Source of the DNA: Eutreptiella sp. 'Long Island Sound 2002'
Lineage: Eukaryota > Euglenozoa > Euglenophyceae > Eutreptiales > Eutreptiaceae
Assembly (NCBI GenBank): GCA_964036045.1
Contig: OZ038379.1
Location: 113,983,604 to 114,047,603 of the forward strand
Direction of reading: 5' to 3'
DNA length: 64,000 bases
Under the pieces are notes generated by a model. The model saw only the letters and a program-made list of their open reading frames with translations. It ran no database searches and was not told the DNA's origin. Positions 14,258 through 62,687 of this stretch are shown here, piece by piece; the stretch's first letter is position 1, and each line of letters opens with the position of its first letter. The position numbers were made by a program, and so were the translations under genes.

Positions 14258-14540
14258 CGCATCCGTTCTTCCGGAGGTTGTTTAGCTTGGGCACAAGGGC
14301 CATAATCATGCGGGCGGCTGTCGGGAGAACGTGAGTCTGGACATGCGGTTCGCTCAGATTTGTGGCATTGGGGGTCATTGAGCCGCACCGTTGGTTCTTT
14401 TGGGGCTAATTGCTTGTTTTCATGCGATTATATGCACACAATGCTACGTGTTAGGGGCCACAGTAGCAATCTGGACGTCCCCAAAGTGATTTATATACCC
14501 ATATCAGTGGTATTTAACACACAACATCACTATTTTTTTC

Positions 14541-14705
14541 GAAGGTTAGTTCGACTAAGCCGAGCCAATAGAACCCCGATTGAATCGCAAGTGAGCGCTC
14601 AGTCCGGGGTTGACTTAGCTTTCATTTAGCTTTCACTAAGCTTTCACTAAGCTTTCACTAAGCTTTCGCTCAGAGCTAGATTTGGTAACTTTAGGGTTCA
14701 TTCAA
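14541..14705 (+). repeat. A1 left terminal inverted repeat
   Basis: The repeat begins GAAGGTTAGTTCGACTAAGC and carries four to five tandem AGCTTTCACTA units at 14,620-14,665. It ends in GGGTTCATTCAAGGTGC. It pairs with 21,008-21,204. Confidence 0.88.
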
Positions 14706-14805
14706 GGTGCATTTAACATGCAACGAGCAAAAAAGCTGGCCCTTCACAATGTTACATCCTTCATTGCAGTGTGCGCTTCACGATGCTATCCACCACGGCT
14801 TCCCT

Positions 14806-16498
14806 TCACTTTCTCTCCCGCCAGGCACGTGACCAAGCCATGCACCGGCGTTGGTACCCCAGTTGCTTGGTCACTGCCCCACTAGTCACCTTCCAACCCT
14901 CCTTGCGGAGGTGTTCATCCAACGTGTGGTTGTCCACCACACGTTGGAGGCCTGACTTGTTGTATAGGAGACTAACCGCCTCAATATTCCTCGGGAGCCT
15001 CTTCAATCGTACATGGCTCCCTTCCAAGGCAAAGCAGTTGAACCTTGCCAAGTTCCCCCATCTACAAAGGTACGCAAACATGTGGTCCATCCACATGTGC
15101 GTCCACAAGGTCTTGGTCCACCATAGAGCAAGACGCCTTGCCCCCACAGTGAAATGTTGCTGCAGAGGGGCCCGTTGTTCATGGCCACTGACAAAGTCGC
15201 GGTTCCATGCAACGTTGGCCATGGAAGTGAAGGCCTGCAACTGGTCCCTACATACATCCACCCAAGGGGGGCCCCCCACTTGATGGCCCCCAATGATGGT
15301 TTCCACTTTTTGGAGCAATGGGAGCCACAACCTAACCCTCAGAAAAAGTACGGTGGCCCCGAAATTGATGCGTTTTGGGCGCTTTTTGTTGGCCTTTTCA
15401 GAACCCCATCGCGCAGGGCGTGCAGTGCGGACCACCATCCGTGCCCCATTTATAGAATCTTGCACGAGTTTTACCGCTAAGGGAGGGAACATACCCCCGT
15501 GTTCCCGCAACACACTCACCATCCCGTTCAGTGTACACTGGGACACCCGAAGCACGCCATGTACCCCGTGATCAGGGATGAGGCGCTCCGACGGAATCTC
15601 ATGAAAGACACCTGTGAGGCGGGGTCGCACCTCAATGCCTGCCATGGCGACTTCAGCTCCACGGAACCGTTGCAACACAGATCCGCAATTCTTGCCACAA
15701 CAATGGCCAACCATGGCCCCCGGGCTCTTCTTGGTGAAGGAATCCCCTCCGGCCAAGATCACATGGGCCTTGCCATCGGCCCAAAGGAAGAGCAACGGGT
15801 GGTGTTCCACACGATTAGCATGGTGCAAACGCAAAGCCTGGGCCGCCCGGATTTGGGCATCAAAGTTGCACTCGTTTTGCATCCGGTACACCGTTGCCCA
15901 TTGCCCGCTACCCTCAAAGAGCCACCACCTGGCGAGGTTGTTGGGCCCAAACCACGGGCCAGCCACTGCACAGCGACATACCCCCTATTCCCCTATTGGT
16001 GCCATCCACGCCGATGGTGACCCATGTGTACCGCGAGCCTCCCGTTTGCATTGTGTCCGGTGCTTGCAGAGCGCGCACTTCATACATCAGCTCCAAGCGT
16101 TCTGAGAAGGGACGATAGGCCCCGCGCATCTCATCGGACCCCTCCAAAATGGTGACCGGCTGGCTAGCAGGGTCGCTTAGCCTAGTCCACCACGGCGCAA
16201 CATCCGCCAAGCTCACGGAGCAATCCAGGTTTTGCAGCAGGTAGATCATGTCCCGGAGCGAGATTGGCAAGCTACGCATCCGCCATACGACACGTAGTGC
16301 TCCGCTCTTGTAATCCGGGACGATGTCATCGCTATGTGCGTTGGTGCGCTCCAACACTAGCAAAACGCTACCATCGGGCTGCACTTCCGCCTTGTACGGT
16401 TCACGGAGCTCGGCCGTAACAACGGCCTCTAGGTCACCCACGCGGCGCCGAATGTGCCGGTGGGATGTCACAAGTGAAATTGGTCCCTTTACGGGCAT
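14806..16498 (-). pseudogene. A1 transposase, DDE-type candidate
   Basis: The start is taken at the ATG at 16,498. The N-terminal part runs to TWVTIGVDGTNR at about 15,985, where a 2-bp deletion relative to copy A2 shifts the frame. The C-terminal part continues from about 15,970 to 14,806. Block 1 is VTIGVDGTN (candidate first Asp). Block 2 is WADGKAHVILAGGD, followed by CHCCG, a likely metal-binding pair and candidate second Asp. Block 3 is FALEGSHVRLKR (candidate Glu with trailing basic residues). The same three blocks occur in the B and D transposases here. It is about 60-70% similar to A2 over its length. It should act in the nucleus on the A-type TIRs. The catalytic assignment is by pattern only. 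Confidence 0.75.
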
Positions 16499-16639
16499 TG
16501 TGCGTTGCACCTATGAGAGGATTGCATGCACAATGAGCGACGTGGGGGGTGAGCCTACATGGCGCCGTGTTGGGGGTGCTAGGGGGGGGGGGGGGTTGAC
16601 CGATTGTTGAGGAAGGGCTTGCAACGAACCTTGAATGAA

Positions 16640-16725
16640 CCGTTTTTTAGCTTTCACTGAGCTTTCATTTGGGGCCAAGTGCCCTTTTCGCGCGCGCAGT
16701 GAACGCTAAGTGAACGATCAGCCTC
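16640..16725. repeat. A-type short-repeat array between the two A1 genes
   Basis: TAGCTTTCACTGAGCTTTCA is followed by TTTGGGGCCAAGTGCCC and GTGAACGCTAAGTGAACG. These are the same words that fill the A1 ends. The array lies directly upstream of the transposase start on the minus strand, where a promoter or 5' untranslated region would be expected. Confidence 0.75.
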
Positions 16726-18256
16726 CGCAATGGGACACATAGTTTGTAAGTAGACCATGGGGGCACTGCAGCCTGCAATGCAGGGCGTTGGAGATGGCTC
16801 CCAAGTCGTAGGTTGTGTGCCGCACTCGCACCTGCAAAACAAAAAAGGACCGTTGTGGGCAGGGTGGTGTGCATTGTGCAACAACGGGGCGGGTCACAGA
16901 AGCCTTACTTGTCCCACAAAGGTGCAGTCAGGCCGGTCCGTGAGGCAGGGTACGATCGTTGGGCTTGCCCGCTAGACCTCGATTCCACAGTTTGCAATCG
17001 AGGACCTTCCCTGGGTGGACAAGACACTGCAGACGCGGCTGACTTTTGTTGATGCCCGTTTCAAAACGGACCGCATTGCGGCAGCTCAGCAGCCTAGTTG
17101 GGTTGGGGAAGTTGGCTCACGTTCAGATGTGGGTAGCCCACGTACGCAGCTGACAGCAGAATGACTGAGCATCAGGCATCAGGCACGCTAGGCATAATCC
17201 ATGAGGCCCGCTGCCAGAAAATTGATTGACTCCCCAGCGGGACTGTGTGCAGCACTTGCAGATGCAGCCGCTTTGGGTGATTGGATCGCAGCGGAAGCCT
17301 CGAGATGCAGACCGTTAGACGTCTGCATCACGTCGTACCGGGCTTCTGCCGCGGCCCGCTGCCGCTCCGAGGCTACGAGCTCGTCATGAAGGTTCTTCAG
17401 TTTCTCCTTCACAATGGCTAGCTCCTGCTCTACCAGAGGGGCTGCACGTGCTGCCACACGTGCAGTATCCCTCTCCTGAACCCACATCCCTCTCCTCACA
17501 CACCTTCCGGTATACGGAAATGGGAACTGTACAAAGTGAGTCACGGGACGGACTGCCAACGGGCACAACATCGGTTGACACCTCAGCCACCACACCCTTG
17601 ACCGACCCCTTCCCCGACCCCTTACCCGACGTGTCTGCCTTGCGGAAACCCTTCTTGGGGGGCGGGGGGGGGGGGGGGTTACTGCTGCACGGTATCGTTG
17701 CGCCTGCAACGCTTGCTGCCAGACTCACTCCTATCGCTCCCGTCCCTCCTATCCCTGCGGTAGCCATCGGCAGCGTCCGCAATGTCCACTTTGAATCCCT
17801 CGCTGTCCCCAGTACGGAAGTTGGCGACGTGGGCGCGCATCGCAGTCCACGCCTTTGAAAAAAGATGTTCGTCCTGCCCCCCCCCGGACTGCACCAGCCG
17901 AAAGCTGGCTACCCAAGCGCGCACAAGGGTGTCCCCCCGCCCCCTACCACAACGCACCAGTGCTTCGACCCAAGCCTGTAGGCGAAGCGCGCGATCAGGT
18001 AATCCTCCCCCTCCAAAGGGAAGAACCCCGGAGTGGTCGGTTGAAGCCGGCAGGGGAAGTGCATTACACTCTTGCAGGCCGCTTGCGGCAGCTGCACCCC
18101 CTCCACGGAGACGGTCCAATACCAACATTCCGTAGAGGAGCGTGGCACCCCCTTGACGACCACGTTGCACGGCAGGATGTATGCAAGGGCGGCTTGCCGC
18201 GATACATTGGCAATTTGAAGCGGGCGAATGAACGGGCCCGGAGTTTGGACATCGGT

Positions 18257-18347
18257 GTACTGTTGCTTCACACGGAATGGGATTGGCGAACCCAACAGCA
18301 GCTGGTCCATAGAGGGACCCGCAGGCCCAGGGGAATCTTGTGCAGAA
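18257..18347 (+). repeat. Inverted duplicate within the A1 companion gene, left arm
   Basis: This ~90-bp segment (TGTTGCTTCACACGGAATGG onward) recurs as its reverse complement at 18,857-18,940 with about 80% identity. The two arms straddle the intron at 18,571-18,773. Confidence 0.85.
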
Positions 18348-18570
18348 TGGTTTGTCGTCAACTGGAGCGCCCGAGCCACATGCACGGTCCTATCGTTGGG
18401 TAGCTGCACTTGAACGCCTGCTGGTGCAATAGATGGTCGAATTTCTTGTGAGGGCGGCCAAAAGCCTCGCAGACCGGCTAGTGTAGGGGTATGCAATTCT
18501 TTAAACAAAAACGAAACGTTTCTGCAACTAACAATGCAAAAAGTCCGCCATAGCACCGTGCAAGCTGCGG

Positions 18571-18773
18571 CTGCAAGCCAACTGAAGCATTTTCAGCTCT
18601 GAGTGAGCTTTCATTTGGGGCTAAGTGGCCTTTTCGCACAATCGGTGAACGCTCAGTGAACCCTCAGTGAGCTTTTAGTGAGCACGCCAAAAGGTCATTT
18701 AGCCGTGAATGAAACCTCCATGAGAGCTAAAGAGGGTTCACTACGTTCACATGCTAAACAATGGGTCACAGAC
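18571..18773 (-). other. Intron in the A1 companion gene carrying A-type repeats
   Basis: On the minus strand it begins GTCTGTGACCC and ends CAGTTGGCTTGCAG. The 203-bp interior contains AGTGAGC, GTGAACGCTCAGTGAACC and TTTGGGGCTAAGTGG repeats (18,595-18,740), the same words as the A1 ends. Splice sites are inferred from GT/AG and flanking coding text; no frame test was possible because the neighbouring frames are damaged. Confidence 0.55.
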
Positions 18774-18856
18774 CCCCCCTCGAGCACACCGATTGCAGCC
18801 CCATCCAAAGTCCGCCACTTGTTGCCCTGATCATCCATTTCACTATTATGGCCCAG

Positions 18857-18940
18857 ATTGCCCTGCACAAGATGGCCCTGGGCCCTCTATGCAGTAGCTT
18901 GCGTTGGGTTCCCCGATCCCATTCCCTATGAAGCAACGGT
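18857..18940 (-). repeat. Inverted duplicate within the A1 companion gene, right arm
   Basis: Reverse complement of 18,257-18,347. Shared words include GAATGGGAT, GAACCCAAC, CATAGAGGG and ATCTTGTGCAG. Confidence 0.85.
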
Positions 18941-21007
18941 ACGCCGCCACGACCAAATGCGTAGCCTCCCTCGCAGCGTGTCCCCGACATACATCCCACA
19001 ACCACACAGCACACGAACACTTTGCTAGGACATGGGCAGCGCATCCAAAGCGGCGTCTCTGCATCAGCGTCGGCGCGGCGGGTCTCGGGGCCGGCGTGCC
19101 ACTTCAAGCCCAGCTCCAGGGCTTGTGCCGTGGACAGGGGCCCATCGGCAGGGGCCCAGCATTGCTGCAATAGATGGGTCTGCCGGCGGTGTGGGTTGGC
19201 CAGATCCACCCATGCAGGCCCGGACACCCACGAGACATCCCCCTCGGCAATGAAGACGACCCCCATCCGGTCATCCGCTTCGGCGGCAGGGTGTCACAAC
19301 AGCCGGGGGTGGGAAGGGCTGCCGGGCGCGTCTCGCCAATGACGGCAGGCCGGGCCTCGAAATGCCGTATGCTGGGAAGGCGGATTGTGCCCTGCAGTCC
19401 TTGGCCAAAGGCAAAGAACTGCCCCTAATGCGGGATGCGCAAAGGGGTGGGCAGCCGCCGGTCTCCCCGAGGATAGTGGGCCGGTTCATCCTTGGCCCCC
19501 CGAAGAGGGTCAAAGATGAACCAGGCCCTCGTCCGGCCACTGATGCTGCACATCCGGGGTGAGGAAGCGGAAGAGGACAATTAGCTTCCCCAACCCGAGC
19601 ACTGAGCACAAACCGCGGTGTCTGGGCGTGGATGCGAACACAACGACGTGACCACGCGCACACACCACGGCTTGCACCTGGAGGGCATCGTGGTTCCTGA
19701 GGTGATTGCCCACGTGCACATGCAGATGATACTTGTCCGATGGGACAAGCATCATCGAGAGGTGCGTGGGCAGTGCACCCCTAGTAGGAAGCGTCGCCGG
19801 CAACTGATCAACATTAGCGTGCCAATCTTGCTGCCCACCATCCTCCCCCGTCGGAAGTGATTACCACTGTCTTGCGTGGAGATCCTTTGCAAGGGGCCGA
19901 CGAGGAGCGAAAAAGTTCGTTGGCTCGCTTCAAGAGATCTCTTCGCAAAGCAATGGGCAACTTGCCGGGCCGCGTTTGCTAACGCTGAGGAAGTGTGGAA
20001 TCTGCCAAGAAGGGCTCACGTGAGGCGTGGTTGGAGATCAAATACCACACTTCCTCCCGTTGACTCCCCGTGGACTCCAAGGAAGGTCTCACAATGGCGT
20101 ACCACAGTGAGGCTTCCTCTTGGTCCACGACCCCCTTCAACGCCCGGAAGCCCAGCTGCTTCAACAACTCGTCCCACGCCAGATCAGACGAGGGAAGGTC
20201 ATGGGAGAAAACCGGGGATGTGAGGGAGATAAAGGGGAGGGGGATACCACACCCCTGGAGGAAAGAAGGTTCCTCCGCGGTGAACACCGCGGGGGTGGTA
20301 AAGTTGGGAACGACGTGGGATTTCTCCGGTACGATGGGACACACACGGAGTGTTTCCCACCAGTCCCCATTTACCATTCCACGGTGTAAGGGAGGTGCGG
20401 TAGTATCCCCTTTTTGAGTGGCACCTCTGTGACCCGAACATCTGCAGTATATCAATACCATAGATTGCTGGTGTCCACGATCTCGAACCCACATTGTCTA
20501 GGGAAGGTGTCTAGCTTTCCGGTGGCCTGCTGGCACGAATTGAGCACAGCATCCACCGGAAAGCGAAAGCCGATGGCCCGCAGTCTTGGATGTGCCGAGC
20601 GCAACTCATCCCCCATTCCCATTCACTCCCACGGCCCATCCCCAACTTCACCTTCGCGTCACTTGTTGCTAGTTACATGACCATTGGTATCGGACACCCC
20701 AAGGGTTTTCATATGGTTAGGACATCCCCTTGTATCATCTCTTTCGTCACTCAAAGTTGTGTTCTCCTAGGTCTAGAACCACTCAATGGGACCGTGCTTG
20801 TGTCAAGGCCTTGGAGCCCTTCCTGAGGCTCCCCCGTGCACCGGTCTTGCTCGCTGAGGCCGGGTGCACGGGAGTGCCTACAGAAGCCCTTCAGCCATGG
20901 GCCACGTGGGCGTAGCAGCCCCCCCCCCCCCCAGATGTGGTCCACATCAACGTTGTTGATGGGACCCTTCTAGGTAAGGGTTGGATGTACCGGGTCAACA
21001 GGAGGAA

Positions 21008-21204
21008 GGGAGGTATACTTGAATTACCCTTGAATGAACCTTGAATGAACCCCAAAGCGACCAAATCTAGCTCTCAGTAAAAGCTCAGTGAAAGCTCAGT
21101 GAAAGCTCAGTGAAACCTAAATGAAAGCTAAGTGAACCCCGGACTGGGCCCTCACTTGCGGTTCGGTCGGGGTTCATTGGCTCGGCTTAGTCGAACTGAC
21201 CTTC
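21008..21204 (-). repeat. A1 right terminal inverted repeat
   Basis: Read on the minus strand it begins GAAGGTCAGTTCGACTAAGC, then carries AGCTTTCACTG units (21,070-21,130) and ends in GGGGTTCATTCAAGGTTCAT. It mirrors 14,541-14,705. Confidence 0.88.
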
Positions 21205-21406
21205 AAAAAAAAAACCACCCACCCACAACCTTGACCAGACATCAATGTGAATCACCTAAACACATTAAAAGAACATTATCTAGCATGCAAGAAGCAAATA
21301 AAACGGGCACAAAGACATAGCACTAGGCAATGAACGGCAAATAAACCCCAACTTCACAAGTCCTCTTAGCCACCAACGAAATTGGACGTACATCGTTGAC
21401 GGATGC

Positions 21407-47597: not shown

Positions 47598-47756
47598 GTT
47601 AGAGCATAATTTCTAGAACACCTTGCTGGCCTTAATTTTGGGGCAAACCACCAAAAAAATGGATCCGGCATCCTCAAAAAACCCCCATCCCATTTCTTTC
47701 CCCAAGGAACCCTCATTGTAGGGGTGGTTTCTAGGGGGGATTTGGCCAAAGTGCTC

Positions 47757-47880: not shown

Positions 47881-47941
47881 CACATCCCTCACTAGGACAA
47901 ACAAGGCAAAACACTTGGCACACAGCATTTGTGGTCTTTCT

Positions 47942-50083
47942 TCACACAAACTCCTCAATGTCTGAGGCCTTGGCTGCCTCCAAACCCACTTGCTCCAGGG
48001 CGGTCATGGACATGCAAGGGTGCATGTGGCGGAGGGACATACTTGGCCTCACCAAGGACCAAACCTTGAAACAATGTTCGAGCCTCCTCTTGTAACGCCC
48101 ACGCCTATACTCTGTGGGGATGTAGGAAAACTGAAAAATATTCCTCCACTTCTCAGCAAAAAAAGTGGAATGTGCCAAGCACCAATTGGACCCACCTGGT
48201 AGGGGACCAACCTGGGTCTCCCCAAGTTTTCGAAAACTTTGTGGTTAACGCACAGTGGCGTTCCGCTTGGGTTAGAGCGTACATGTCCCTCACGCTCCGA
48301 AGCTCATACAAACCCTCAATGCATTTCACCATGACATGCACAACAACCCATAATGGAGGTCATCACGGAGGGGACATGCTCTTTGGGGCAATCCACAAAT
48401 TGCCTTTGGAAGGGGGGGGGGATGAGGAACACTTTGGTGCTCGTAGGATCAAAATCTTTTTCCTCGGGCCTTGAGGCCGAGGGGAGACGTTCCCTCACAG
48501 GAATGCCTGAGGTCTCATCCTTGAGGGCTTGTTTGAAGGCCTGCTAATGTCCAAGAGCTTGGGCTTTACTAGGGGTACCAGGGGGGAGGGCCTGAAGGAT
48601 GGTTTGTGTGCGCTTTGTAATGCCATTAAGGATGCGGCATGCTGCATGTTGGTAGTCCCCAGGCCGTCTGTTGGGGGTCACACATCTCAAAAATGCCCCC
48701 CATCTTGAGGTGGACTCCACCCCCATTTGCTCAAATATACCATTGGGGTCTTTGCACAACCAACACTTAGAGTTAGCCCCACCCATTGCTTGTATCCCTT
48801 TCCCATCCCAAGTCAAAATAACAATGCAAGTCAAAAATTGGTTTTGAAATAGGACAATGTCCTCCTCCACATCCTGCACCTCTTGATTGAGGTTGGCGGA
48901 GACATCAAGGCTTCTGAAAAAAGCCTGTTCATCCCCGCCATCCTTGCAAAACCATGAGGCCCATAGCTTCACCTTCGGAGCATACTTTGGCCACCCCCAT
49001 ACATTGACCCATACATCCGCACGGGTAGAGGATGCCTTCCACAAGGAAGTCGCATCCACTGAAATGACGACAATGGCAACACTGCGAAGGGAGGGTTTCC
49101 CAAGAACTCGGGGCACAAAAATTGCATTATTCACAATTGACTGCGAAGGCACATGGGCGGCTACCCTATTGCGGCCTGTGGTGGACCTTATAATAGTTGA
49201 TTGGGGAAGGTAGGGCATGATCCGTTGCCAAACGGTCCTTAGGTCCTGTTGGGTACAACAGCGAGGCATTGGCAAAAGGGCCCGCTGGGAAGGATGCATG
49301 CTGCATGCCATGCGTAGCATGCTTAGGGCCTCATGCTCCTGAGCTGCGAATGCAAGATGGCCACCAAGTGGGGCAGAGAGGGCTGTGCAAGACCCACCAC
49401 TCAAACAAACTTCTCCCTTGGTGTTGGTACCACACACGATGTTGGGATGCCCCAAGAGAACTCGATCAAAACTGTGAACAGCCTTCAACCGCTGCTGCCG
49501 GGCATTGGGACATTGCAACTCGTTGTCTCGCCGCAGGTTAGCTGAATTCGGAGCCCTTAGGGCCTCATTAACAGCAATATCCATAACAATAAGAGGTCCT
49601 TCATTGGAAATGAGGGATGGTTTTCACGGAGGGGCCCGAAAAACACGCGAGATAACCCACGCCACAACTCGCGCGATAACTAGGTTATCGCGCGATAACC
49701 CCCGCGAAAAGCCCCCGCGATAACTCAGTTAGAGCGCGATAATCTCCTCCCTTGAAAGAGCCCACACACACAATCAGCGCCATGGGCGCCCCATCACACA
49801 AATGGGCGTGAAGGCCCATGGTCTCAGTCGCTTGGGGGCGTACAATTTGGAGGCTACACCATGTGAACCATGGTGGTGCAGTCCGATTGCAATACTCATG
49901 GAACCCCACAACCAAGGGAGGGAGGACAGGCTTCAAGGTAGTAGCAGCCACCCTGATTGACCTAAAATTAGAGGGGTTGGGGTTTCCGCTTCCCACAAGG
50001 CCCAAGTGCCACATGTCCACTTGGGCCCCATATCTCTGGCCCCCCCTGAAAATGCCCTTAGGCAACCCTCTCAGCAAACCCAC
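47942..50083 (-). pseudogene. B transposase, DDE-type candidate
   Basis: The upstream exon, 50,083-49,750, includes TTLKPVLPPLVVGFHEYCN. The main exon is one open frame, 49,584-48,544. It holds block 1 VVISVDATSLWKAS (Asp codon at 49,054-49,056) and block 2 ILTWDGKGIQAMGGANSKCW with a CWLC pair, then RWGAFLRCV. The frame continues past TAG 48,544 to about 48,330. Frame changes there and in a T-run at 48,160 lead to the C-terminus (stop 47,942) with block 3, FSYIPTEYRRGRYKRR. Homology to the D transposase is clear around KCW, WGAFLR and the final block, and A shares all three blocks. About 640 residues in all. It should act on the B TIRs. The copy appears inactive. Confidence 0.75.
49640..49750. 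repeat. B-type short-repeat array within the transposase gene
   Basis: GCGATAACTAGGTTATCGCG, CCCGCGATAACTCAGTTAGA and related words lie between two transposase coding blocks. They probably sit in an intron: the upstream coding text stops near 49,750 and resumes at about 49,600. Splice sites could not be fixed by frame. Confidence 0.75.
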
Positions 50084-50879
50084 GAGTTATCGACTCCCAC
50101 TCCTGCCGCTACCTTGCCTCTGCACCCCTGCCTGCTGGGCGGTGAAGGTGGCACTGAGGGTGGAGGTGAGGCTGCGCACCTGCGCCTCAGCCAGCCCCAG
50201 GCGCTGCTGGAGGTCATCCCTCGTCCTCCGCAACACCTCCACCTCGACCGTCACCTTTGCTGCGTCCGGCTCGGCCTTCTGCCCCCCCTCATTGGGATCC
50301 TTTAGGTCCCCCCTCACCGCCTCCTCCTTCCCCCTCTTGTTGGGCATTTCGAGGGCACGTTCCAGGGCACGCTGAGTGTTGCCCTGGTCCTTCTGTACCC
50401 TCCACAAGGCCAACCTGCTGACCGCCGCCCTCCCCGTGGCCAATATGGCCTCCACCCCCGTGACGGCCGCTTGCTGCACTCAAGTGTTGCAAGCGTCCGT
50501 CACGTGGGTGGCCACGGTGGCGGCCAAGGCCCGCACATCAGGAGCGGGCTGGGGGGGGGGGGGGCTGGGCCGCCACCTTGGCCACCTTCGATGGCTTGGG
50601 GAGGCTTGGGGGCTTCACCCTTAGCCTTGGGGTGGGGGGGTGACTCTCCTCCGCCTCCACCACCACCACTTCATGCCCCCACTTTATGGGCCTTCCCCCT
50701 TGGGGCGCATAGTCCTGGGCACCCAAAGCGGTTGCATCACACACACTTTGGAGGGGGTTGTACCCCCCCACCCGGTGTACGTCCGACTCCCTGCCCAGCT
50801 TGTCCCACACCTCCCGCCAAGTCTATTCCCCCGTTGCTTCATCAACGAAGCAGAGTCTGAGAAGGAAATAGCTTTTTCG

Positions 50880-51074
50880 CTAGGGGGGGGGGGGTCGCTA
50901 ATCCCAAACAAACACAAAAACGCAGCAATTGTGTCCCCCTCAAGCAAATTTGGCCAAGTGGTCAAAGCCCCCCCCCCCCAACCCACACATAGGAGGGGAG
51001 GGTGAGGTTGGTCTTCCTCTCCACCCCCCGCTCCTTTTCCATGATGCACTAACCCTAACCCTAACCATGGTTAC
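50880..51074 (-). other. Intron in B companion gene with two telomere-like units
   Basis: It starts GTAACCATGG and ends in a C-run followed by CTAG. Coding text resumes with CGAAAAAGC. TTAGGGTTAGGG appears just inside the 5' end (51,053-51,066), so this telomere-like tract is intronic and not a chromosome end. Confidence 0.55.
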
Positions 51075-51302
51075 CTGCCGGTACCATCCAGTCCCCGCCT
51101 GCCGGCAGGCCTCGTCTGCCGGCTCCCCCCACCATCCAAGCTGCCCCCTCGGCCAGCTTCTTGATCTCGCCCCCCCTCCAGCTCCGCACGGGCCGCCACC
51201 GGCTTGTCGACCCGTGCTCTAGCTGCTTCTGCTACTCTTGCTGCAGTGGCCTCGCCCACCTCCTTGGTGAATAGACGCGGTAGCTGCACGATTAATTGTC
51301 GT

Positions 51303-51534
51303 CTGCAAAGGACGAAAAAAAACAAAAAAAAAACACGCGATAAGTCCCGAGATAACTCGCACGATAACTCAGGTAGAGAGTGATAACCCCCCCGCGACAA
51401 CCCCCGCGATAACGAGTTAGAACACGACAACCTAGCGCAATAACTAGTTAGAGCACCCAGTTAGAGCGCAATGACTACCGCGATAACTAGTTAGAGCAGA
51501 GGTTAGAGCGGGGTTTAGTGTGCAGTATTCACAC
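51303..51534 (-). other. Intron in B companion gene carrying B-type repeats
   Basis: The 5' end GTGTGAATACTGC follows CPCHHV, and the 3' end is CGTCCTTTGCAG. The 232-bp interior is almost entirely GCGATAAC and GTTAGAGC words (51,333-51,515), identical in kind to the arrays at both ends of B. Confidence 0.7.
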
Positions 51535-52024
51535 GTGGTGACATGGGCACATGCATTTGCCCGCCTCCTTCTCGGGGTCGTTCAGCACTAGGTTCATCGT
51601 CCGCAGCCACACAAAGTCCGTGAGGGCTGCATACTCCTAGACTTGCCTGCACTCCACCACCTGGGCCACCCCGTCGAGCTCCGGAGGAACCCTCGCCATC
51701 CCTCCATACATTCCCTTCCTCACCACCAAAACGGTGCCCGCCGGCACCTTAATCCCAACATGCTCTTGCAAGCTAGGTCACTGTAGTGCCTCCCCATGGC
51801 ACACCTCAGCCAAAGGGCACCGGTCAAGGTGTCTTGCCACCCTCCCCACCTCCTCGTTGGTGAGGGGAGCAACCACCTCCCCCCACCCCCCCACCCCCTC
51901 AACAAAAAATGCATGGTGGTTGTTCCCAGCGGGAGCAAGCATTGAGCACATTGCTCAATGCGGACCCCATTGGGGTCCTCCCGCCCCCTCCTCCCCCTCC
52001 GCCCCTTCAGCTCCTCCCCCTCCT

Positions 52025-52120
52025 CCCTTGGTACCTGTATGAAAAGTAGTATTGTTCATAATTCATATTTCATATATGAACGCTTCATATATGAACCATG
52101 AATTATGAATAGCTTTTATG
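52025..52120 (+). repeat. C left terminal inverted repeat and hairpin array
   Basis: The TIR (52,025-52,059) is followed by TTCATAATTCATATTTCATA, its complement ATGAACCATGAATTATGAAT, and further words to 52,120. The inner region can fold back on itself. Confidence 0.85.
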
Positions 52121-52147
52121 AACGCTTCTTTGTCCACATATTTTGTT

Positions 52148-54079
52148 ATGTCTTACCCTCCCCCCGTCTTCACGGAGCTGAACATGATGCTTGTTCGGCT
52201 CAGTGGTGCCACCAGTCTTCGGGACGGCAAGTGTTCCGACGTGTTGGCCCAATGGATATCATCGTCCCCCCTCATCCGGGCCCGTTTTACGGAGGCAATG
52301 GACCACGCTCCCCTCCCGGCGGTCCACCAAAACAAGGTGCAGGCCATCCGTACGTATGCGGAGGCCCTCTTTCCCGCACCCTATGTGATAGGGCTCCTTA
52401 TGGAGTTGGGTGCCACACGCTCCGGCTTCCGGGTGTTGTCTGAGTAGATCACCCGCCAGGGCGACGCGTACACCGCCCGCACGGGACTGCCCTTCCCACG
52501 GCCCATCCCCACACGGGACCAATTTGACGCAACGTGGAAGTCATTGACCGTTCCGCTTGTGTTGTCCCCCCCGGTGGATTGTGCCGACCCCCCATCATCG
52601 GGTCGCTGCTGGCCCCTGCGCTCGTGGGTACGATACGTGCAATCCCGGACGGCACTGTGCCAGTCTATTGACTGGACCCGCCCCCTCACCTTTGTGGTGC
52701 AGGGTGACGGGTATCCTTGCGCTGGTGGCAGTTGGTCGCAGCTATCGGTGGGGCTATTGAACCATGGGCTAAAGGCGAGTACACCCGCCTTCCTATGGGT
52801 CATCGGCATGGCCGTCACGGGGGACAAGGATATGGTTGCCCTGGGCCAAATGTTGGCTCAGGTGCTACAGGTTTGTAGTTTGCATTTTCGTGTTCATAAG
52901 TTGTTCATAATTCGCGCGTTCATAATTCGAGAACTGCCGTCATAAAACGCCGTGCTGCAGTTTTATGAATTATGAGCGCGTTTTATGAACACGAATTATG
53001 AACACCTTTTATGAACACAGGCCCTGCAGTCCATCATTGACTGCAAAAAATTTTACTGGTGCAACAACTGAGTGCCGGCAGAGGTCCTCCTTGGTGAGGA
53101 CCAGCCGTGGCTCGGGCGGCTACTGGGCATTAGCGTGGCTCCCCAAGTGGGGAGCATTTTCAACGAGGCCGTGCGTGACAACACGGCCTAGCAATGGAAT
53201 GGCGTCGCTGCTTGGAGAACAATGCGGTCTGATGCGAACAATCATCGTCGCCATCTGATGACCCGCAAAAGTTTGGATGCAGCAGGATGCACCGGCGAGC
53301 CGCTGCTCGTCATAGCCAGAACCCGGGTATTTTTGTGCATTTTGCACTGTTGCATGGCCTTCGGGAGGCTCTTCGTGGCCTTCCTGGAGACCCAGGCGGG
53401 AAATCATCCCCTTGAGGTTGCGGGGGAGGTGCAGAAGATTTTGTACCGCAACCGGTGTGGCGTTCGTTTGGGGGCGCACAACGCACCGGACGGTGAGGAG
53501 GCCCACAACCAGTTCTGGGCCTGGGAGCAGATTGGGCCGCTGCTTGCATACGTCGAGGAGGACCCCACGTGGCAAGCGGTTGTGGGGCTGCAAACATTGC
53601 TGCGCACTTTGTACTCGCCGATTCCGGTTGTGCTGAGCCCTTCATGCCGACCTGTTGCTGCTGCGTTTCGGTAACATCGCTGCGGGGAGTAGGGGTCACA
53701 CTATTTGTTGTTCCTCGAACAGGACTGTGATGCCATGCTCGAGAGTGCGGATGCATGTGGGGTGGGATTGGCTGCTGTGTCACGGGACGTTGTGGAGAGA
53801 GTAAATTACATTTTGAAGAAGGGATACAATGGGCATAGTGCTAGGGGTGGGGGTGCGGGTAAGAGTGCAGAGGAACGGGAAGCAATGGCAGTCCAGCGGG
53901 TTTGGGAATGGTGGTTTCTACCCTTTGACCTGCCGTTGCTGCACTACAACACCCCACACACCGCGGCGTGCACCGCGGCTTCACTTCTTAAGCACTACTC
54001 CCCACGCACCCCCCACCCACGCGCCCTCTCCGACCCAGCTCTCTTATTCTGCACCAATCCATGGACGCCGCCGAGATGA
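52148..54079 (+). pseudogene. C transposase-like protein
   Basis: The start is taken at ATG 52,148. The first exon runs to 52,870 with TAG at 52,445. Exon 2 begins at 53,021 in the same frame and carries TGA at 53,069 and TAG at 53,189. Notable text: FVVQGDGYPCAGGSWSQLSV (possible first Asp), VFLCILHCCMAFGRLFVAFL, and after a double frame slip near 53,640-53,700 YLLFLEQDCDAMLESADACG. Then comes VVERVNYILKKGYNGH, which matches in form the E...K block of the A, B and D transposases, and VWEWWFLPFDLPLLH. The tail overlaps the start of the next gene by 19 bp. It is a more distant relative, or an independent family with a convergent layout. The assignment as a transposase rests on position and the final block. 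Confidence 0.55.
52871..53020 (+). other. Intron in C transposase-like gene, hairpin of C-type repeats
   Basis: Starts GTTTGTAGTTTGC and ends ATGAACACAG; 150 bp, so both exons stay in one frame (VLQ | ALQ). The first half repeats GTTCATAATTCG and the second half its complement, GAATTATGAAC, giving a foldback almost the length of the intron. Confidence 0.85.
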
Positions 54080-54123
54080 GAAAGCTGCTGGAGAAGAGCC
54101 ATAGGGCGACGCTGGCCCTGGTG

Positions 54124-54276
54124 GTATGCTGTCTGTCGCGTTCATATTGCGTTCATAATTCGGCGTTCATAAAACCGAAACTGCCGTCATAAATGAATTA
54201 TGAACCGATTTATCAACTTATGAATTATGAACAGTTTTTATGAACGAATTATGAGCCGTGTCCCCCATGTCCACAG
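54124..54276 (+). other. Intron in C companion gene with C-type hairpin
   Basis: Starts GTATGCTGTC and ends CATGTCCACAG. It joins ALV to EKRLAA in frame. The interior carries GTTCATAATTCGGCGTTCAT and complementary TGAATTATGAACC words. Confidence 0.85.
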
Positions 54277-55108
54277 GAGAAGCGACTGGCAGCCCATGCT
54301 GCAGCTCCTCCGCCTCCTCCGCATCCTCAAGCTCAACTTCCACCTCAACCTCCACCTCAAGCTCCTCCGCCTCCTCAAGCCCAGCCCCCACCCCACAGCG
54401 CTCAACCCGCCTCCGCCTGCCGACCCGCCGCCAACTCCTCGAGTGAGGAGTCGACAGACTCCTCAGCACGCGAGAGGAAGAGGAGGAAGAAGGAGAAGAA
54501 GAAGGAGGAGAAGAATAGGAAGAAGGAGAAGAAGAGGGAGGAGACGAAGAAGAAGGAGGAGGCAGCGGGGGGGTAGGTGAAAGAGGGGAGGCCGCGGAGG
54601 ACATCGAGGAGGTGAAGGCCCAGGGGACGTGGCAGTGGAGGGGGAGGGGGCAGGGGGGGGGGAGGGGGTTTTGGTTGCGACCCCCTGGTTGAGGGGGGAG
54701 GCAGGCCATGCCTGGGGCCTCGCCCAGGCCACCCAGCGGCTAGTGCTGACCCTCCCCTGGCCGGGGGGGCGCTTGATGCGGAGGTCTCATTGGGAGCTGT
54801 GGTTCCTCCACCGGGAGGAACGGGGGTGGGTGAAGCTGCAGCGCACCGGGCGCAAGTTGGAGTGCATCCCCCGGTAGGAATCCATTTTGGGGGGGGTGTA
54901 TGACCCGGGGCAGGAGGCCTCGTAAGAGGGGGCCGTGGGGGGCCTCACCATCACCCGCCCCGCCAAGCCCCTTGCCCGGGCAGCCCCGGCCACCAGCAGC
55001 ACCACACGCCCCACCGGCGCCGCCCCGGGCGCCCCTCCCAGTGCAGCGGCGAACGTGCGGACCGCCTTGACCACCATGGGCACCATCGGACTAGAGCCGG
55101 ATTTCGAG

Positions 55109-55249
55109 ATATTTGCGTTCATAATTCGTTTATAATTCGTTCATAATTCCGTGTTCATAATTCATAATTGCTGCACTACCCGTTCATGAACCATGAACGC
55201 GATTTATGATCGCGTTTTAGGAACGCATTTATGAATGGCACTGTCACAG
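55109..55249 (+). other. Probable C-type intron with AT instead of GT at the 5' end
   Basis: The frame is kept if 141 bp are removed between EPDFE and VVDVEV. The 3' end is CTGTCACAG, but the 5' end is ATATTTGCG where GTATTTGCG would be expected, a G-to-A change. The interior is again TTCATAATTC words and their complement. Confidence 0.6.
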
Positions 55250-56369
55250 GTCGTGGACGTGGAAGTGAACCCGGCGGACGTCGCGAGGGTCCGCATCCGG
55301 TACAAGTTGGGCAACGCCAAGTTCAGCATCGCGCTGTCCGCCCTGTACCAGCTGCTGCTGCTCAACCCCCAGCGGGGGTGTGCCATCCTGTCCGGGCTGC
55401 GGGAGTGGGAGCGCTCCCGCCGCCTGACAGACTCGTGGGCGGCCAACACCCCCTGCTGGGCGGCCCTCGGGGAGTTGGGGTGGGAGGGGTGTTCGGACGA
55501 GGACATCCTGATGTCCAGCTGTGGGAAGAACCCCCCCACCCCGGCCAGCCCCCGCAGTGCCTGACCAGCAAAGCCCGCCCCCGCCGAGAAACCCAAACCC
55601 CCTGCCGTGGCCCCCCCCAAACCCCCGCAAAGCAAGAGGCGCCCACCGGCGCGCAAGTCCTTCGAATCCGGCAGCAGCTCGTCGTCGGACCAGGCACTCC
55701 CCCGTCCCCATGGGAAGGGGAAGGGGAAGCAGGCGCACCAAAAGCGGCGCGAGGAGCCCCCCTCTTTGGAGGGGGATGAGTCACCTGACTACCTGCTTGG
55801 TGAGCAGGTGTATGTGCCCTACAACGATGGTGTCTACCCGGGGGTTGTAACCTCGGTTGTGGCAGGGGGGGGGGGGGAGGTGTGGGTGGAATACCCAGGG
55901 GAAAAGGAGATGTTTCGGGTTGAGAGGCATTTGTTGTATGCCTCTCATGCTGCAGCAGTGACCCATTGGGAGAACCAAAAGGGTGACAGGGCCGCCAAGG
56001 CCAAGGCCAAGGCCAAAAAGAAGTCTAACCCCAAACCGAGCGCTCACCCGCCGGCTGAGCCGGCCCCCAAGCCAGCCAAACCTGAACCCAAGCCTGAGGC
56101 TAAGCAGGCCCCTCAGCCCAAGCCCAAAGCTGCCCCTCAGGCCGCCCCCATGGAGGTGGATGCCCCAGCGCACCCCTCGGCCGAACCCACAGCCAAACCA
56201 CCAGCCCGAACCCATGCCCTGGCCCCAGATGGAGGTGAAACCTAGGCCACGGCCCCGCTTTGGGAGGACCCAACAGGCCCCAGCCCTGAGGTGTAGGGCG
56301 GCATGAACCTGCAAGGACAAGCAAGCACAAGCAAGTACAAGAAAGATTGAAGCCTGAGCGATTGTGTGC

Positions 56370-56696
56370 CTGTGCTGTTGTTCATAAATGCGTTCATAAA
56401 ACGCGTTCATAGAACGCTATGCGCGTTCATAAAACGAGAACTGAATTATGAACTGAATTATAAACAGAATTATGAACAGGGGAGGAGGTTTTCATACTTT
56501 TCAAAAACGGGCAAAAATGGCAATTTTTCCAAAAAACCCCCGGCGGAAAAAAAAAACTCACCCCAAGGGTGGTGACCCAACCCCCCCAATTTTGAACGAA
56601 CATAGCCCGTGGGTACCCTAGCATGAGCAAAATCCGTTCATATTTCATAAAACGATTTATGATGAACAAAACTACCTTTCATACAGGCGCCAAGGG
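56370..56696 (-). repeat. C right end: hairpin array and terminal inverted repeat
   Basis: GTTCATAAAACG words and complementary GAATTATGAAC words span 56,380-56,480 and resume at 56,632-56,668, followed by the TIR (56,662-56,696). CAG after each array (56,477-56,479 and 56,684-56,686) could serve as a 3' splice site. Confidence 0.75.
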
Positions 56697-58366
56697 CTGG
56701 CATGGCACAGAAAGCCCCTCTTTGTGTGTTGTGCACAAACCTGCTAGCTCGCAGCCGCAGCACTTGCCAACAACCTTCCCCGTACACCTAACCGCCCCCT
56801 AACATGGTGTTGTCTTGGCACCCCGGCCACCAAGCGCCCACACCTGAGGCCGCTTAATGGCCTTGGTGACATGCAGGTTGGGGAACCACATGTTAGGGCC
56901 TTGGGTTAGCTCAATTGCAAAAAATGCCATGAGGCAAGGATCGGACACACCGGTGGGTGTGGCCTTTGGATTGCCCGACCCCCAGTGGACATCAAGGGCA
57001 CGAAAAAAAAGGCAGACCCCCTCTTGAATGGCACAGCCCTCTCCACCCAAGGGTCAAGGAACCCCGAACTGCTGAAGGGAACAAAAAGAAAATGCGACCC
57101 ATCCTCGGCCTCATGATTATGCGTAAGAATAATCAAACAATTAACAATCAATGTGCCTTGCGGCACAGTGCCACGGGGCGCATCGCCATGCAGGTGCTGC
57201 GGGGTGTGGTCATAGCACGAAATTTTTGCCCTGTCGAGAATGGTGCAGCTCCTCCCCCCCCCACCCCCACCACACTCTTCTTCGCAGTCTCAAGCGCAAG
57301 ATCTGCCATCCTTTTGAGGACCCGCAGATCGTGGAGCTTGTGGGGGTTGTGCTTGTGGTGGTTGCGGCCCCCATAGTGGCTGTAGACTCTGCGGCCGCCC
57401 CCTAAATCTTGGGGTCTGCCCACAATGGGGGGGTTCTCATTGAAAATGGGTGCTTCTTTGAGAGAGGCACCCTCCCAAGATCTTCCAAAAGACTCTCGAG
57501 CTGCACATGACTCAAAAAATTGTGCTCAAGCAAGTGCTTCACCACCAACCTATCCCCGGTGGTGACCACAAGATCCATTGGATCCCTATTAAAAGCCCCA
57601 ATGGGCTCTGCCTCAACCACTTCCTTGTCCTCCCCAATAAGGAGAGGTGTTGCCCCAAAAAGAAAAAGAATCACTCCCTTGCCCAAAACAATGTTGGGAG
57701 TGGTGACCCCATACCACTCACACTCCCACTCCCATGTGGGGCAAAGAGAGTGCATGAGGAGTTTAGTTTCGGGGTCCTCAGTGCAGACCCGGCGGGTGTT
57801 GTGGGTAAGGGGTTGGGGAAACCAACCATCCGTCTTCCCCTTCCCCTTACCAGGTCTGATCCTTACCTTCTGAACACTAATCATGAGGGGGTGGTGGGGC
57901 TTAGCGCCCCCCCCCCCACCCCCACTTCCTCCACCTCCTCCGCTTCCTCCTCCACATCCTCCTCTTCCTCCTGACCCACATAGAGGGTCGTCTTCGTCCC
58001 CGCACCCCTCTCGGCATGGGCCGTGACAAACTCCACCACCGTCGCCACATCCTCCATATGAAGCTGGATCAAAAATCCACCAACCCCTGGATTTACCTCT
58101 AGCAACTCGAAGATGTAGTTGCTGACAACCAGGGGGTCCTTGTCGTCCGCCATGAAGGGGGAATGATGGATCATGAGTCCAAAGTCCACACGCTTCTCAA
58201 AAGGACTCGCCACACGGTGCCGCACTTGGGTGTCACCCATGGTAAACCCCTTAGGTCCGCCATGGCGACGAACCTCAAAGAGCTTTGACTGCTGCTCGCA
58301 CCAAGCATGGGCAGCAGCAAGGGTCATAGTAAATAATTTGAGAGCTAAGGCGAAGATGGGAAACAT
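56697..58366 (-). pseudogene. B companion gene (ORF1), 5' part
   Basis: It starts at ATG 58,366 (MFPIFALALKLFTMTLAAAH, a hydrophobic N-terminus) and contains VRRHGGPKGFTMGDTQVRHR and an acidic EEEEDVEEEAEEVEEV stretch. It continues in pieces with WECEWYGVTTPNIVLGKGVI and QLESLLEDLGRVPLSKKHPF (57,884-57,402), then LHDLRVLKRMADLALETAKK (57,423-57,148) and FRALDVHWGSGNPKATPTGV (57,050-56,799). Breaks often coincide with C-runs. The middle piece resembles the first piece of the A1 companion (a TTP/TPA strand, then LL+ xLG). C interrupts it at 56,696. Confidence 0.5.
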
Positions 58367-58377
58367 GGAACAAGAGC

Positions 58378-58485
58378 AAACGAAGCGAGATAACCCCCGC
58401 TATAACTCGCGCGATAACTAGTTTTCGCGCGACAACTAGCAGGATAACTAGTGCTCTAACCCCGTTCTAACTAGTTGGAGCACAA
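58378..58485. repeat. B-type short-repeat array, right subterminal
   Basis: Words such as GCGATAACTAGTTTTCGCGC, GGATAACTAGTGCTCTAACC and GTTCTAACTAGTTGGAGCAC lie between the companion start codon (58,366) and the right TIR, so they occupy the likely promoter region. Confidence 0.82.
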
Positions 58486-58621
58486 AAAGAGCAAATCGCA
58501 AAAAGTGCAAAACGGGCAATACCGAGGAAACGAGACATAGAAGGCACAGTGTTGCATCATAGTGCACCCATGTAACACGTAAAAATCCGGGTTCCAGCCA
58601 TATTGACAACCCCCAAAATTG

Positions 58622-58658
58622 GGGGGGTTCCGCACCACGCCCTAGAACAGCGCATCCC
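58622..58658 (-). repeat. B right terminal inverted repeat
   Basis: GGGGTTCCGCACCACGCCCT and AGAACAGCGCATCCC, the reverse complement of the left end at 47,561-47,597. Confidence 0.8.
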
Positions 58659-58674
58659 GGCACTAATGCAGCTC

Positions 58675-59884: not shown

Positions 59885-60104
59885 CCATTGTTGGGTGCGT
59901 CGCTAGAAGGTGTGCGCAAGAACCCCCCCCTTCTAGCGCCCTTTTTGCATGATTACCCAAGCCACACCACCTTGTGTGGTTGGAAAGTGGTTTGGGGCCA
60001 ATCACCACATGTTTACGCCCCTTTTGGTGGCTGATTTTCACTTTTGTCCGAAACGATCCGTTTTGCCGGATTTTCTACACCCCCCCCATTCGCTGGAAGG
60101 GGAG

Positions 60105-60275
60105 TTCTAGCACCCTTTCTGCACCCTTTCTGCACCCTTTCTGCACCCATTCTGCACCCTTTGTGCGCCCTTTGTGCACCCCCCTTACTGCGCTAGAACC
60201 CCCTTTCTGAACCCTTTCTGCACACCCTTTGTGCGCTAGAACCCCCTTTCTGCACCCTTTCTGCGGGGGATTTTC
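60105..60275. repeat. D-type subterminal 11-bp repeats
   Basis: Ten or more tandem CTGCACCCTTT units, some as TGTGCGCCCTT, are interleaved with GCTAGAACCCCCTTTCTG. They lie between the left TIR and the transposase 3' end. Confidence 0.9.
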
Positions 60276-60336
60276 TGCGCCAAGGATTTTTGCAAGAAGG
60301 GCACCAAATGCATCCACCGGGTTCAAATTTGGTTTC

Positions 60337-62299
60337 TCAAGCGTACAAGCAGTGCCTTTTTCTTCGGTCCTTTGTGGCCTCGCCATGGGCAAGCCTTTGC
60401 CGGGCCGCTCGGTGTCGTAACCCCACGGCAAGGGTCTCCATGTTCAATACATGGGTGAGACCACGTCGTGAAACGCGTGGGCGGCGGAGGCACCACCCAC
60501 ACATGCTGTTTTTGACAGCAAGTTTGAAAGGCTTATGCCTGTGTTCCGCAGGTATACTGCTGAACACATAAAGGTTACGATACTTTTGGAGCACCGCTCC
60601 ACAATGGGCCACTGTCCAGTGGACCCATGGGGTTGACTCCCAACCCAATTGGAGCCATGCCTCACCGATTTTACGAAAGTGCGTCTTGCCCTCTTGTACC
60701 TAACCATTGGTCAATGGTGTCTTTTGCCTCCACAAGGTATATAGGCTACGCATATTGCGCAGCAACACTTCAATAAGTGTCCACAAGAGGACACCACCAA
60801 ACATGGTGTTAGGAAATTGGTTCCTGAGACCATGTAGAATTCGAACATGGTACTTGGGGTCTGTCAAGAACAACATAGAGGTGCCGATATTAAATTGCCC
60901 TACCTTAGTGGTCTTTTGGAAAAGCCTGTCATCGGGAGGCACATCTTTTACATCTGCCAAAAGGGTAGACCATACATCGGCAAACTCACTAGCAATTCGC
61001 CGCACTCCAACAACACCGACTGTTAACGTGGTAATAGTTTCTGTTAGGCGCTTCTTGAAAGCATTGGTTACCCTACAACCTGCGTGTGCATAGTCTCCAA
61101 TGCGAATACACACACTGCGAAGAAATGCCCCCCATTGAATTTTGTTTACCGTGCCCTCTATCGGCACCGAGCCCCTAGCATCGGGGCAGCCCCACCAACA
61201 CTTCCTGCCCCCCGTTCGTCACCATCATTACTTTCCCATCCCCTGTCACTTTACATTGAAACTTTTTGGTTTCGTTTTTGACACGGAATGTACAACTTTC
61301 CTGTAGATGGAGGATTTGGGCATTTGGGCCCGCATTCTCATCTAAAGCCTGCAGCCATGCGGCGTCATCAGGCCCATCCATGCACACCCACATCACCCAT
61401 TTGTGGATGTCCCCCGCAGTAGAAAACCCCGAGGCCTAGCCGTTTACAAAAACAGCGACCTTAGTGACCGATGTGTGCCACAATGACGTTGCATCGGGGC
61501 ATATTAAAATCCAAATCTTCTCAGTATCCACTTCAAGCTCCCCTAGGGTCTCGGCTATCTTCAACTGCGTAAAAACCAGGTCTTCTAGTGTTGCTGTCGC
61601 TGCGCACCGCCACTCGATCATGTTGGGGCCATTGATAGCCTAGGTTGTGGTGGAGCGCGGTGTTAACCTTGTGCGCGCTTCGGCAACATCGCGGCGCGTA
61701 CGTTCGCGCGGGAGGGCCAACATCTGCCGTATTGATAACTTCAATCTCCTACCGGTGGCCCATAGTCCGATTGCGCGCACTACACGAGGCTCCTCATCGT
61801 CGTCATGCCCGGCGAAACGGATGTACAAGCCTCCACCACCCTCAACGACAACTGCCTCCGGATCCAGTAAAAGTTCCTGCATGATGGTGTGTATGTGGTG
61901 CCGCCGCTCTGCTCGGGCCTTCCCCTTGATGGCCGTGTATGGCTTAAGCTGTGGGATGCTATCCACAAGTGCGGCAACCGCATTTCCCATGGTTTCTGTG
62001 ACAAACGGGAAAGGTGTGACCGCTGGAACCCCTGCTGGAACCCCATGGTGGAACCCCTTTCTGCGTTGGAACCCTTTGCTGGAACCCTTTGCTCGAACCC
62101 CTTCCAACGCTGGATGGTGGTGCCCGAGGGGATCGCCACCTTGGTGTTGGGTTGGGCGGCGAGATCGGTGCAGCCCAACCCATCGGGGCCAGCATAGCCC
62201 CAAGTGCCCACGGCAGCCCGGGCAGCCGGCAGCCCGGGCAGCCGGCAGCCCGGGCAGCCTTGGCCCAGTCGACCAAGGGGGCCAACAAAGGCATCTGGG
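60337..62299 (-). pseudogene. D transposase, DDE-type candidate
   Basis: Exon 62,299-62,109 (DLAAQPNTKVAIPSGTTIQ) joins in frame, across an intron, to exon 61,995 onward (QTMGNAVAALVDSIPQLKPY). That frame continues through TAG 61,640, block 1 ICPDATSLWHTS, TAG 61,436 (aligned with Trp of B in VNVWGW), and block 2 VTGDGKVMMVTNGG. After a frame change near 61,195 come CWWGCPDARGSVPIEG and IQWGAFLRSVCIR, matching B. The frame continues past TAG 60,700 to block 3 FSSIPAEHRHKPFKLAV and RGLTHVLNMETLAVGLRH, ending at 60,337. About 640 residues. It is the clearest link between the B and D elements. Confidence 0.75.
61996..62108 (-). other. Intron in D transposase carrying D-type repeats
   Basis: Starts GTTGGAAGGGG and ends CCGTTTGTCACAG. 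Phase 1, and the joined codon CAA keeps the protein frame (TTIQ | QTMG). The interior is GGGTTCCAGCA-type repeats, the minus-strand form of GCTGGAACCC. Confidence 0.85.
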
Positions 62300-62487
62300 C
62301 TGAAATGCAAGGGAACAAAGGTGAAACAAAGGTGCTGGAACCCTTGCTGGAACCCCTTGCTGGAACCCCTTTGTGCGCTGGAAACCTCTGCTGGAACCTT
62401 GCTGGAAGCCGCATTCTGCGCTGGAACCCCTGCTGGAACCCCTGCTGGAACCCCCCTTTCTGCGCTCGAACCCCTGTTGGAACCCAC
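62300..62487 (-). other. Second D intron carrying D-type repeats
   Basis: The 3' end CCCTTGCATTTCAG directly precedes the exon at 62,299. The 5' site GTGGGTTCCAAC at 62,487 is tentative. Ten or so GCTGGAACCCC units lie inside. Confidence 0.7.
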
Positions 62488-62687
62488 CTTTGTGCGCTTT
62501 TGGTCAGTTTTGGAAATTCAACATAGCGTGTGGCCCTTCACAACCTAGGCTTGCTTTGGACTTAGGACACTTATAGGAACTCCTACAGTGACTCTTAGGC
62601 ATTGTAAACACGTGCACATCGTGGTTCTAGTGGTACCCAAAAGGGGGGGCGGTTTCTGCGCCCACCTTCTAGCGACACACCCCATGG

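Follow-up and report, generated by a model that had tools for sequence, protein, structure and literature searches.

Subterminal arrays are known best from the En/Spm (CACTA) transposons, for which PMC2613891 and PMC8978399 describe many copies of a motif of about 12 bp near both ends, in direct and inverted orientation, together with a second protein encoded beside the transposase. The motifs vary between subfamilies and species (PMC2613891, PMC8978399), and the protein TNPA binds the subterminal repeats and is able to obstruct RNA polymerase sterically (PMC2613891). In a rare plant variant of the Mutator-like elements (MULEs), described for 61 elements in tomato, the end sequence is repeated inside the element, the internal copy lacks a target duplication, and the extra whole terminal inverted repeats (TIRs) mostly stand in tandem at the ends (PMC3310237). 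Introners are introns made of repeats; they contain inverted repeats, have predicted hairpins, spread over host genes and carry direct repeats at their splice sites (PMC7789003). Family-specific CACTA subterminal arrays, rare internal whole TIRs in MULEs and introners in host genes are thereby known already, and searches of the open PMC library gave no account of a family that bears end-type arrays in introns of its own. The present analysis concerns four transposons, elements A, B, C and D, in a 64,000-nucleotide stretch of contig OZ038379.1 of Eutreptiella sp. 'Long Island Sound 2002' (assembly GCA_964036045.1, positions 113,983,604 to 114,047,603), here called the window, and their copies in a 2.28-Gb eukaryotic assembly. 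In several transposon families, clusters of a short word of the family's own lie near the ends and inside the element's own introns, at fairly regular distances.

Like CACTA elements, the elements described here have a subterminal array built from a motif of 10-20 bp at each end. They differ in that arrays also occur in introns and before the transposase, in that the termini are not CACTA/G (TGGGATG in B, TGTACCTG in A', a young subfamily related to A, and CCCTTGG in C), and in a target duplication of 2 bp instead of 3 bp. A Pfam scan of the A, A', B and D transposase pieces and of the C protein returned no transposase family, and tnp2, the CACTA transposase family, had no match at E<=1. The layout D..DGK..CxxC..E of the transposase is one that we take to resemble tnp2. 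The 8-11 bp target duplication of Mutator-like elements was not found, the duplications here being 2 bp. The tomato MULEs, with duplications of 9-11 bp, repeat whole TIRs, whereas here short words recur in introns and do so in several families (PMC3310237). Introners are dispersed over host genes, whereas the introns considered here belong to genes of the element itself and have words in common with its ends (PMC7789003).

The arrays and their end-interior coupling are real. Counts of 8-mers within each element and in the remainder of the window, with satellites excluded and no words preset, gave 13 occurrences of GTTAGAGC and 12 of CGCGATAA in B and none outside, 21 of GTTCATAA (one outside) and 15 of CATAATTC (none outside) in C, 10 of AGCTTTCA in A (two outside) and 12 of TGGAACCC in D (two outside). 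Elsewhere in the window these words hardly occur. The 7-mers of an element's own ends cover 0.60-0.98 of its internal arrays, against means of 0.11-0.33 in 200 dinucleotide shuffles, and the ends of foreign families cover at most 0.47. Because the array limits of this test were drawn by eye, ends were also defined by position alone (the outer 420 bp; 330 bp in C) and compared by 10-mers, which replaced a sliding 7-mer scan that was too noisy. The interior windows that reach 50% cover or more sit on internal arrays, namely two in each of B, A' and B' (the young B copy at locus L031), three in each of C and its sister copy C', and one in each of D and A; the intron array of A stays under this threshold. 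One of the B' peaks, at element positions 2,501-2,750 (L031 4,852-5,101), matches the intron at L031 4,862-5,103. Between families the best 60-bp window reaches at most 0.43 cover by 10-mers, except for C ends on B' (0.52), and A against A' reaches 0.63-0.65. Words recur on the same strand at 11, 22 and 32 bp in A', 11 bp in A, 12-13 bp in B' and C', and 11-13 bp in D. A sequence-only reading of the window had proposed four element types of like layout with different words, and the 8-mer counts, the shuffles and the test with position-defined ends bear this out. Its further statement that words do not cross between types stands in so far as crossing is small in the 7-mer and 10-mer tests, but there is some overlap between the words of A and D: the ends of A give the maximum foreign 7-mer cover, 0.47, on the D internal array, where shuffles against D's own ends reach 0.33.

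Element B (47560..58659, minus strand) is interrupted by C, has the TIR TGGGATGCAGCG.. (TGGGATG..) and is flanked by a 2-bp target duplication, GC/GC as read. Word counts place its 5' subterminal array at 58387..58480 and its 3' subterminal array at 47762..47872, and alignment to sister copies places an array-bearing intron of gene 1 at 51303..51534. The transposase frame (48544..49584) has 346 aa, against 552 aa in P0003. A further internal array at 49640..49745, found in the copy survey and the 10-mer test, had been taken for a gap within the transposase (49,640-49,750); it lies upstream of the transposase start codon. In polarity the 5', intron and leader arrays agree, with GTTAGAGC-type words ahead of GTTATCGC-type words, and the 3' array is inverted.

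A first look at the genome gave 4,364 candidate copies of B, of which 113 were scored; the 112 outside the window are 80-82% identical to the window copy, mostly in a 584-aa open frame. Arrays were surveyed in the window copy and the 29 best-scoring of these loci, with 4 kb fetched for each. The array before the transposase is kept in 27 of the 29 non-window loci (absent from L002 and L027), and the 3' array lies within the fetched 4 kb in 28 (exception L008). Full elements were studied at twelve loci of 9.9 kb. Three of them (L038, L041 and L042) align to L031 across the full 7,104 bp at 98.5-98.9% identity, and these young copies carry four arrays at fixed places; the other loci are deleted, nested or cut off. 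The gene 1 junction is present in six of the twelve (L031, L036, L038, L040, L041 and L042), and the other six are without this stretch. All six junction-bearing loci hold, at the same junction, an intron of 241-242 nt with GT-AG borders in phase 0 (CACCAG|GTGTGA..TTCAG|GCTACC), most of which is filled by the array. An apparent intron acceptor in L037 proved spurious on checking.

The 28-mer GTTATCGCGCGATAACCTAGTTATCGCG from the B array occurs 2,509 times genome-wide, and its reversed control not once. The first 100 places listed with positions fall into 92 arrays in 63 chains; among them, 27 of 40 same-strand neighbours no more than 8 kb apart stand at 2,200-2,500 bp, as in full elements, and 42 of the 63 chains have a single B array.

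A 2-bp duplication flanks B at six of nine two-ended loci (L031, L032, L034, L040, L041 and L042) and is lacking at L033, L037 and L038, the end base having been picked after the flanks were viewed. Locus L034 (the same as L002) retains the end arrays alone, with the duplication AT, and L032 (the same as L010) retains the end arrays and part of the leader array, with the duplication TG. Each of the two deletion junctions was found at a single locus, so the deletions may be younger than the insertions; the use of these loci as proof of movement without internal arrays was withdrawn, as the duplications may predate the deletions. Nor are the arrays regular deletion breakpoints, since the break falls within the leader array or on its border in L032 and L034 and elsewhere in L033, L037 and L040. 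Gene 1 of B has a first exon of 708 aa followed by one of 402 aa. The first exon matches PhyH (E 0.0097) and 2OG-FeII_Oxy_3 (E 0.076) in Pfam, both more weakly than the curated cut-offs. By eye, gene 1 of B (L031:2741-4864) and of A' (L043:5952-7433) reads as a 2OG-Fe(II) dioxygenase with a second exon; for A' gene 1 and for the open reading frame ahead of the B leader array the dioxygenase-like motifs were likewise seen by eye, and Pfam gave none.

Element A (14338..21392, minus strand) has ends estimated from sister copies, A-type ends TGTACCTGCGG.. being seen in L043/L044 and L047. Its word had been placed in both TIRs. Arrays do lie near both ends, at 14613..14690 on the 3' side (AGCTTTCACTA, period 11) and 21018..21145 on the 5' side, both from word counts, but they are subterminal, and comparison with L043, L044 and L047 puts the true ends farther out, at about 14,338 and 21,392. 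An internal array precedes the transposase (16630..16720; 7-mer and 10-mer tests), and another lies in the intron of gene 1 (18590..18770; 8-mers and 7-mers), for which A' has a counterpart intron. The transposase is a broken copy in two overlapping frames (14809..16510), the first of which is 63% identical to 610-aa frames elsewhere. Among 5,394 candidates 105 were scored; A itself aside, two are 70% identical and the remainder 57-63%, and many of these lie within the 610-aa frame that marks subfamily A'. The 2-bp target duplication of A' is CA. Its intron I1 has 751 nt, GT-AG borders and phase 0, with a frame continuous across it, and the array makes up a smaller part of it than in B and in C I1. 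Fragment E (44573..45970, plus strand), a transposase piece with a 3' array, is 93.7% identical in nucleotides to A'; it directly follows the 79-bp satellite.

The words of A and A' differ at the ends and inside alike. In A and in the copies L047 and L048, which are 86-88% identical to one another in the transposase region, eight arrays hold AGCTTTCA 23 times and AGCGCTCA four times, the four in two 3' arrays. In A', fragment E and the A'-type end in L042, six arrays hold AGCTTTCA not once and AGCGCTCA 41 times (10, 10, 4 and 8 in A', one in E and eight in L042). The transposase DNA of the two groups is 67.6-69.7% identical. Arrays within A' are alike (local scores 124-283), far more than arrays at the same position in A and A' (34-50); those of the decayed A score 27-127 among themselves. 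Closer pairs show another picture: in C, C' and window B an array is more like its counterpart in the sister copy than like the remaining arrays of its own element, and in B' the two kinds of match are about equal. The co-evolution of intron and terminal words, for which a test had been proposed, is thus clear in one contrast, the A/A' pair.

Element C (52025..56696, plus strand) lies inside B and has the TIR CCCTTGGNNCCTGTATGAAA; its 2-bp duplication is CT in the window and TG at L046. By eye, the C element at L046 is inserted in an A-type transposase frame. The 8-mer counts mark a 5' terminal array (GTTCATAATTC) at 52054..52125 and a 3' subterminal array at 56379..56478. Intron 1 (52871..53020, 150 nt, phase 0) is mostly array, and intron 2 (54124..54276, 153 nt, phase 0) also holds an array; in both the borders are GT-AG, for intron 2 in both C copies, and the frame continues. 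The third internal array (55110..55249) is a probable intron with the acceptor CACAG at 55,249. Element D (59892..62684, minus strand, ends approximate) encodes a transposase homologous to that of B. It has a 3' subterminal array (CCCTTTCTGCA, CGCTAGAACCCC) at 60105..60275 and a 5' subterminal array at 62333..62498, both from word counts; the region 62,300-62,487, once proposed as an intron, belongs to the latter. An internal array (GCTGGAACCCC) lies just 5' of the gene at 62022..62100 (8-mer, 7-mer and 10-mer tests). Candidates numbered 4,460 for C and 3,013 for D, and in-frame stops are common among those listed.

All four introns checked (I1 of B, I1 and I2 of C, I1 of A') are in phase 0 and have an open frame running on across them, in B by reading, and the proto-splice context CAG|G or AAG|G stands at I1 of B, C and A' and is absent at C I2. 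In A, B and D the array before the transposase stands upstream of the ATG, an acceptor-like CAG intervenes, and the array may possibly belong to a leader intron. With array limits drawn by eye, the gaps between array midpoints are 2,520, 2,540 and 2,462 bp in A', 2,372, 2,278 and 1,954 bp in B', and 868, 1,242, 860 and 1,212 bp in C'. The post-hoc chance of such spacing under uniform internal positions, with the same limits, is 0.0002 for A', 0.008 for B', 0.005 for C' and 0.007 for window A; these values are not independent, because A, A' and B share ancestry.

To judge from sequence comparison, the transposases of A, B and D are homologous, yet their words differ. The B protein P0003 and the D-type P0122 are 31.6% identical over 275 residues (139 bits). 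Alignment of A to B and D gives an hhalign probability of 97.3 (E 2e-11, 330 columns). A PDB sequence search with the B transposase found no transposase family, and two AlphaFold2 models have a mean confidence (pLDDT) of 45 and 41. Related proteins are nameless ENA entries and two JGI entries named "hypothetical protein", P0136 and P0238. The latter, a D- and an A'-type transposase with 15 and 60 member sequences, come from contigs of 1,443 and 1,546 bases, and from them the host or a close relative may occur in environmental data.

The location of the arrays, their family specificity, their conservation in the copies examined, the one joint word difference and the fairly even spacing are observed, and suggest that the word of each family acts for it as a control or recognition signal. 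We give an even chance to the reading that the arrays are predicted binding-site clusters of a DNA-binding protein encoded by the family, the copies at the ends serving transposition and the internal ones self-regulation; the protein, the regulation and its direction are what we infer here. The end arrays would be bound as the subterminal repeats of En/Spm are by TNPA, and it is by analogy with TNPA that the internal arrays, too, are taken as sites of the family's protein. When abundant, that protein would occupy the intron and leader arrays, and the exon downstream and the transposase gene would be transcribed or processed less readily. Its specificity and the words would drift together, and the arrays of one element would be kept alike by selection, gene conversion or both. 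The earlier suggestion that the arrays are functional sites is favoured to this extent by their family specificity, their presence in nearly all of the best-preserved B copies and the joint A/A' difference. A wider version is possible but doubtful: a self-specific code of one word per family, set at both ends and at near-equal intervals in introns, evolving in concert, by which the family protein would recognise the whole element and which would change everywhere at the birth of a new family.

Several points weigh against binding by a family protein. The joint word difference is one phylogenetic contrast, and within it fragment E has AGCGCTCA just once and the intron array of A has AGCTTTCA just once. 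Pfam reported no DNA-binding domain above cut-off for any element protein that was scanned. The 30 B loci represent the best-preserved copies and not a random sample. Element C shares the design and not detectably the transposase, and would be a separate case, because one C protein, compared as a single sequence, has no match to the A, B and D transposases (probability 0.1-0.2). The likeness of arrays within an element could, moreover, stem from passive copying, in which subterminal arrays are duplicated or gene-converted inward and made harmless by splicing, like introners within the element, and have no function. This is the strongest rival, because local alignments of 139/149, 141/149 and 164/176 identical columns (93-95%) join the 5', intron and leader arrays of B', and the proto-splice contexts and common phase of the introns agree with it; we hold it to be unlikely, given that A, B, C and D all show the arrangement, that none of the six B introns is free of an array, that the spacing is fairly even and that the joint word difference needs ongoing exchange. 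The introner-like origin once suggested is not supported for B in its strict form, with TIRs of its own and a duplicated target bordering the intron, as the B TIR (up to 5 substitutions) occurs in the twelve loci at element ends only and never at the intron, which also rejects an inserted B-type miniature inverted-repeat transposable element; the part of that suggestion that finds support is that arrays are copied or homogenised within an element.

A role at the level of RNA, with foldback introns whose hairpins pair the splice sites or yield double-stranded RNA that controls the element, draws on the strong folding of young copies (z of -14.8 for A' I1, -12.7 for A' I2, -7.5 for C' I1, -7.4 for B' I2, -5.5 for B' I1 and -5.1 for C' I2) and on the hairpins predicted for published introners with inverted repeats (PMC7789003). 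Such a role seems improbable to us: the decayed window copies barely fold (B I1 z -1.4, D internal array z -0.3), and the words shared with the ends are left unexplained. The folding may result from the presence of the words in both orientations, because terminal arrays fold as well (B' 5' z -6.6, 3' z -5.0). The even spacing would also suit a coat of the family's own protein on regular sites, which would protect the element from self-insertion, or a folding of the element for synapsis. Immunity to self-integration is known from phage Mu (PMC2837660), but L035 reads as a B element that starts just beyond position 6,326 of a second B, within the latter's transposase (one side seen), which speaks against strict self-immunity; self-recognition of this kind is an improbable explanation. 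Tandem Repeats Finder reports short tandem arrays at several sites, as would be expected if local slippage of simple repeats had produced unrelated arrays at ends and in introns, and this coincidence is made highly implausible by the cross-family matrices, the shuffles, the A/A' contrast and the conservation in copies.

Elsewhere in the window, a satellite with a 63-bp unit fills positions 1-6846, with a switch of orientation at about 5,617-6,224, and the satellite with the 79-bp unit extends over 20.6 kb (23327-43943). Short interstitial CCCTAA/TTAGGG runs lie at 51049-51066 and 63374-63398.

The same type of array stands in the introns of the elements' own genes across families with homologous transposases and different words, which suggests introns as carriers of cis-acting sites within otherwise coding DNA. 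With more than 100 closely similar natural copies, the co-evolution of a transposon protein and its sites is open to test. If the wider reading, that of a self-specific code, is true, these elements would form a superfamily of eukaryotic DNA transposons whose protein recognises the whole element, beyond its ends alone.

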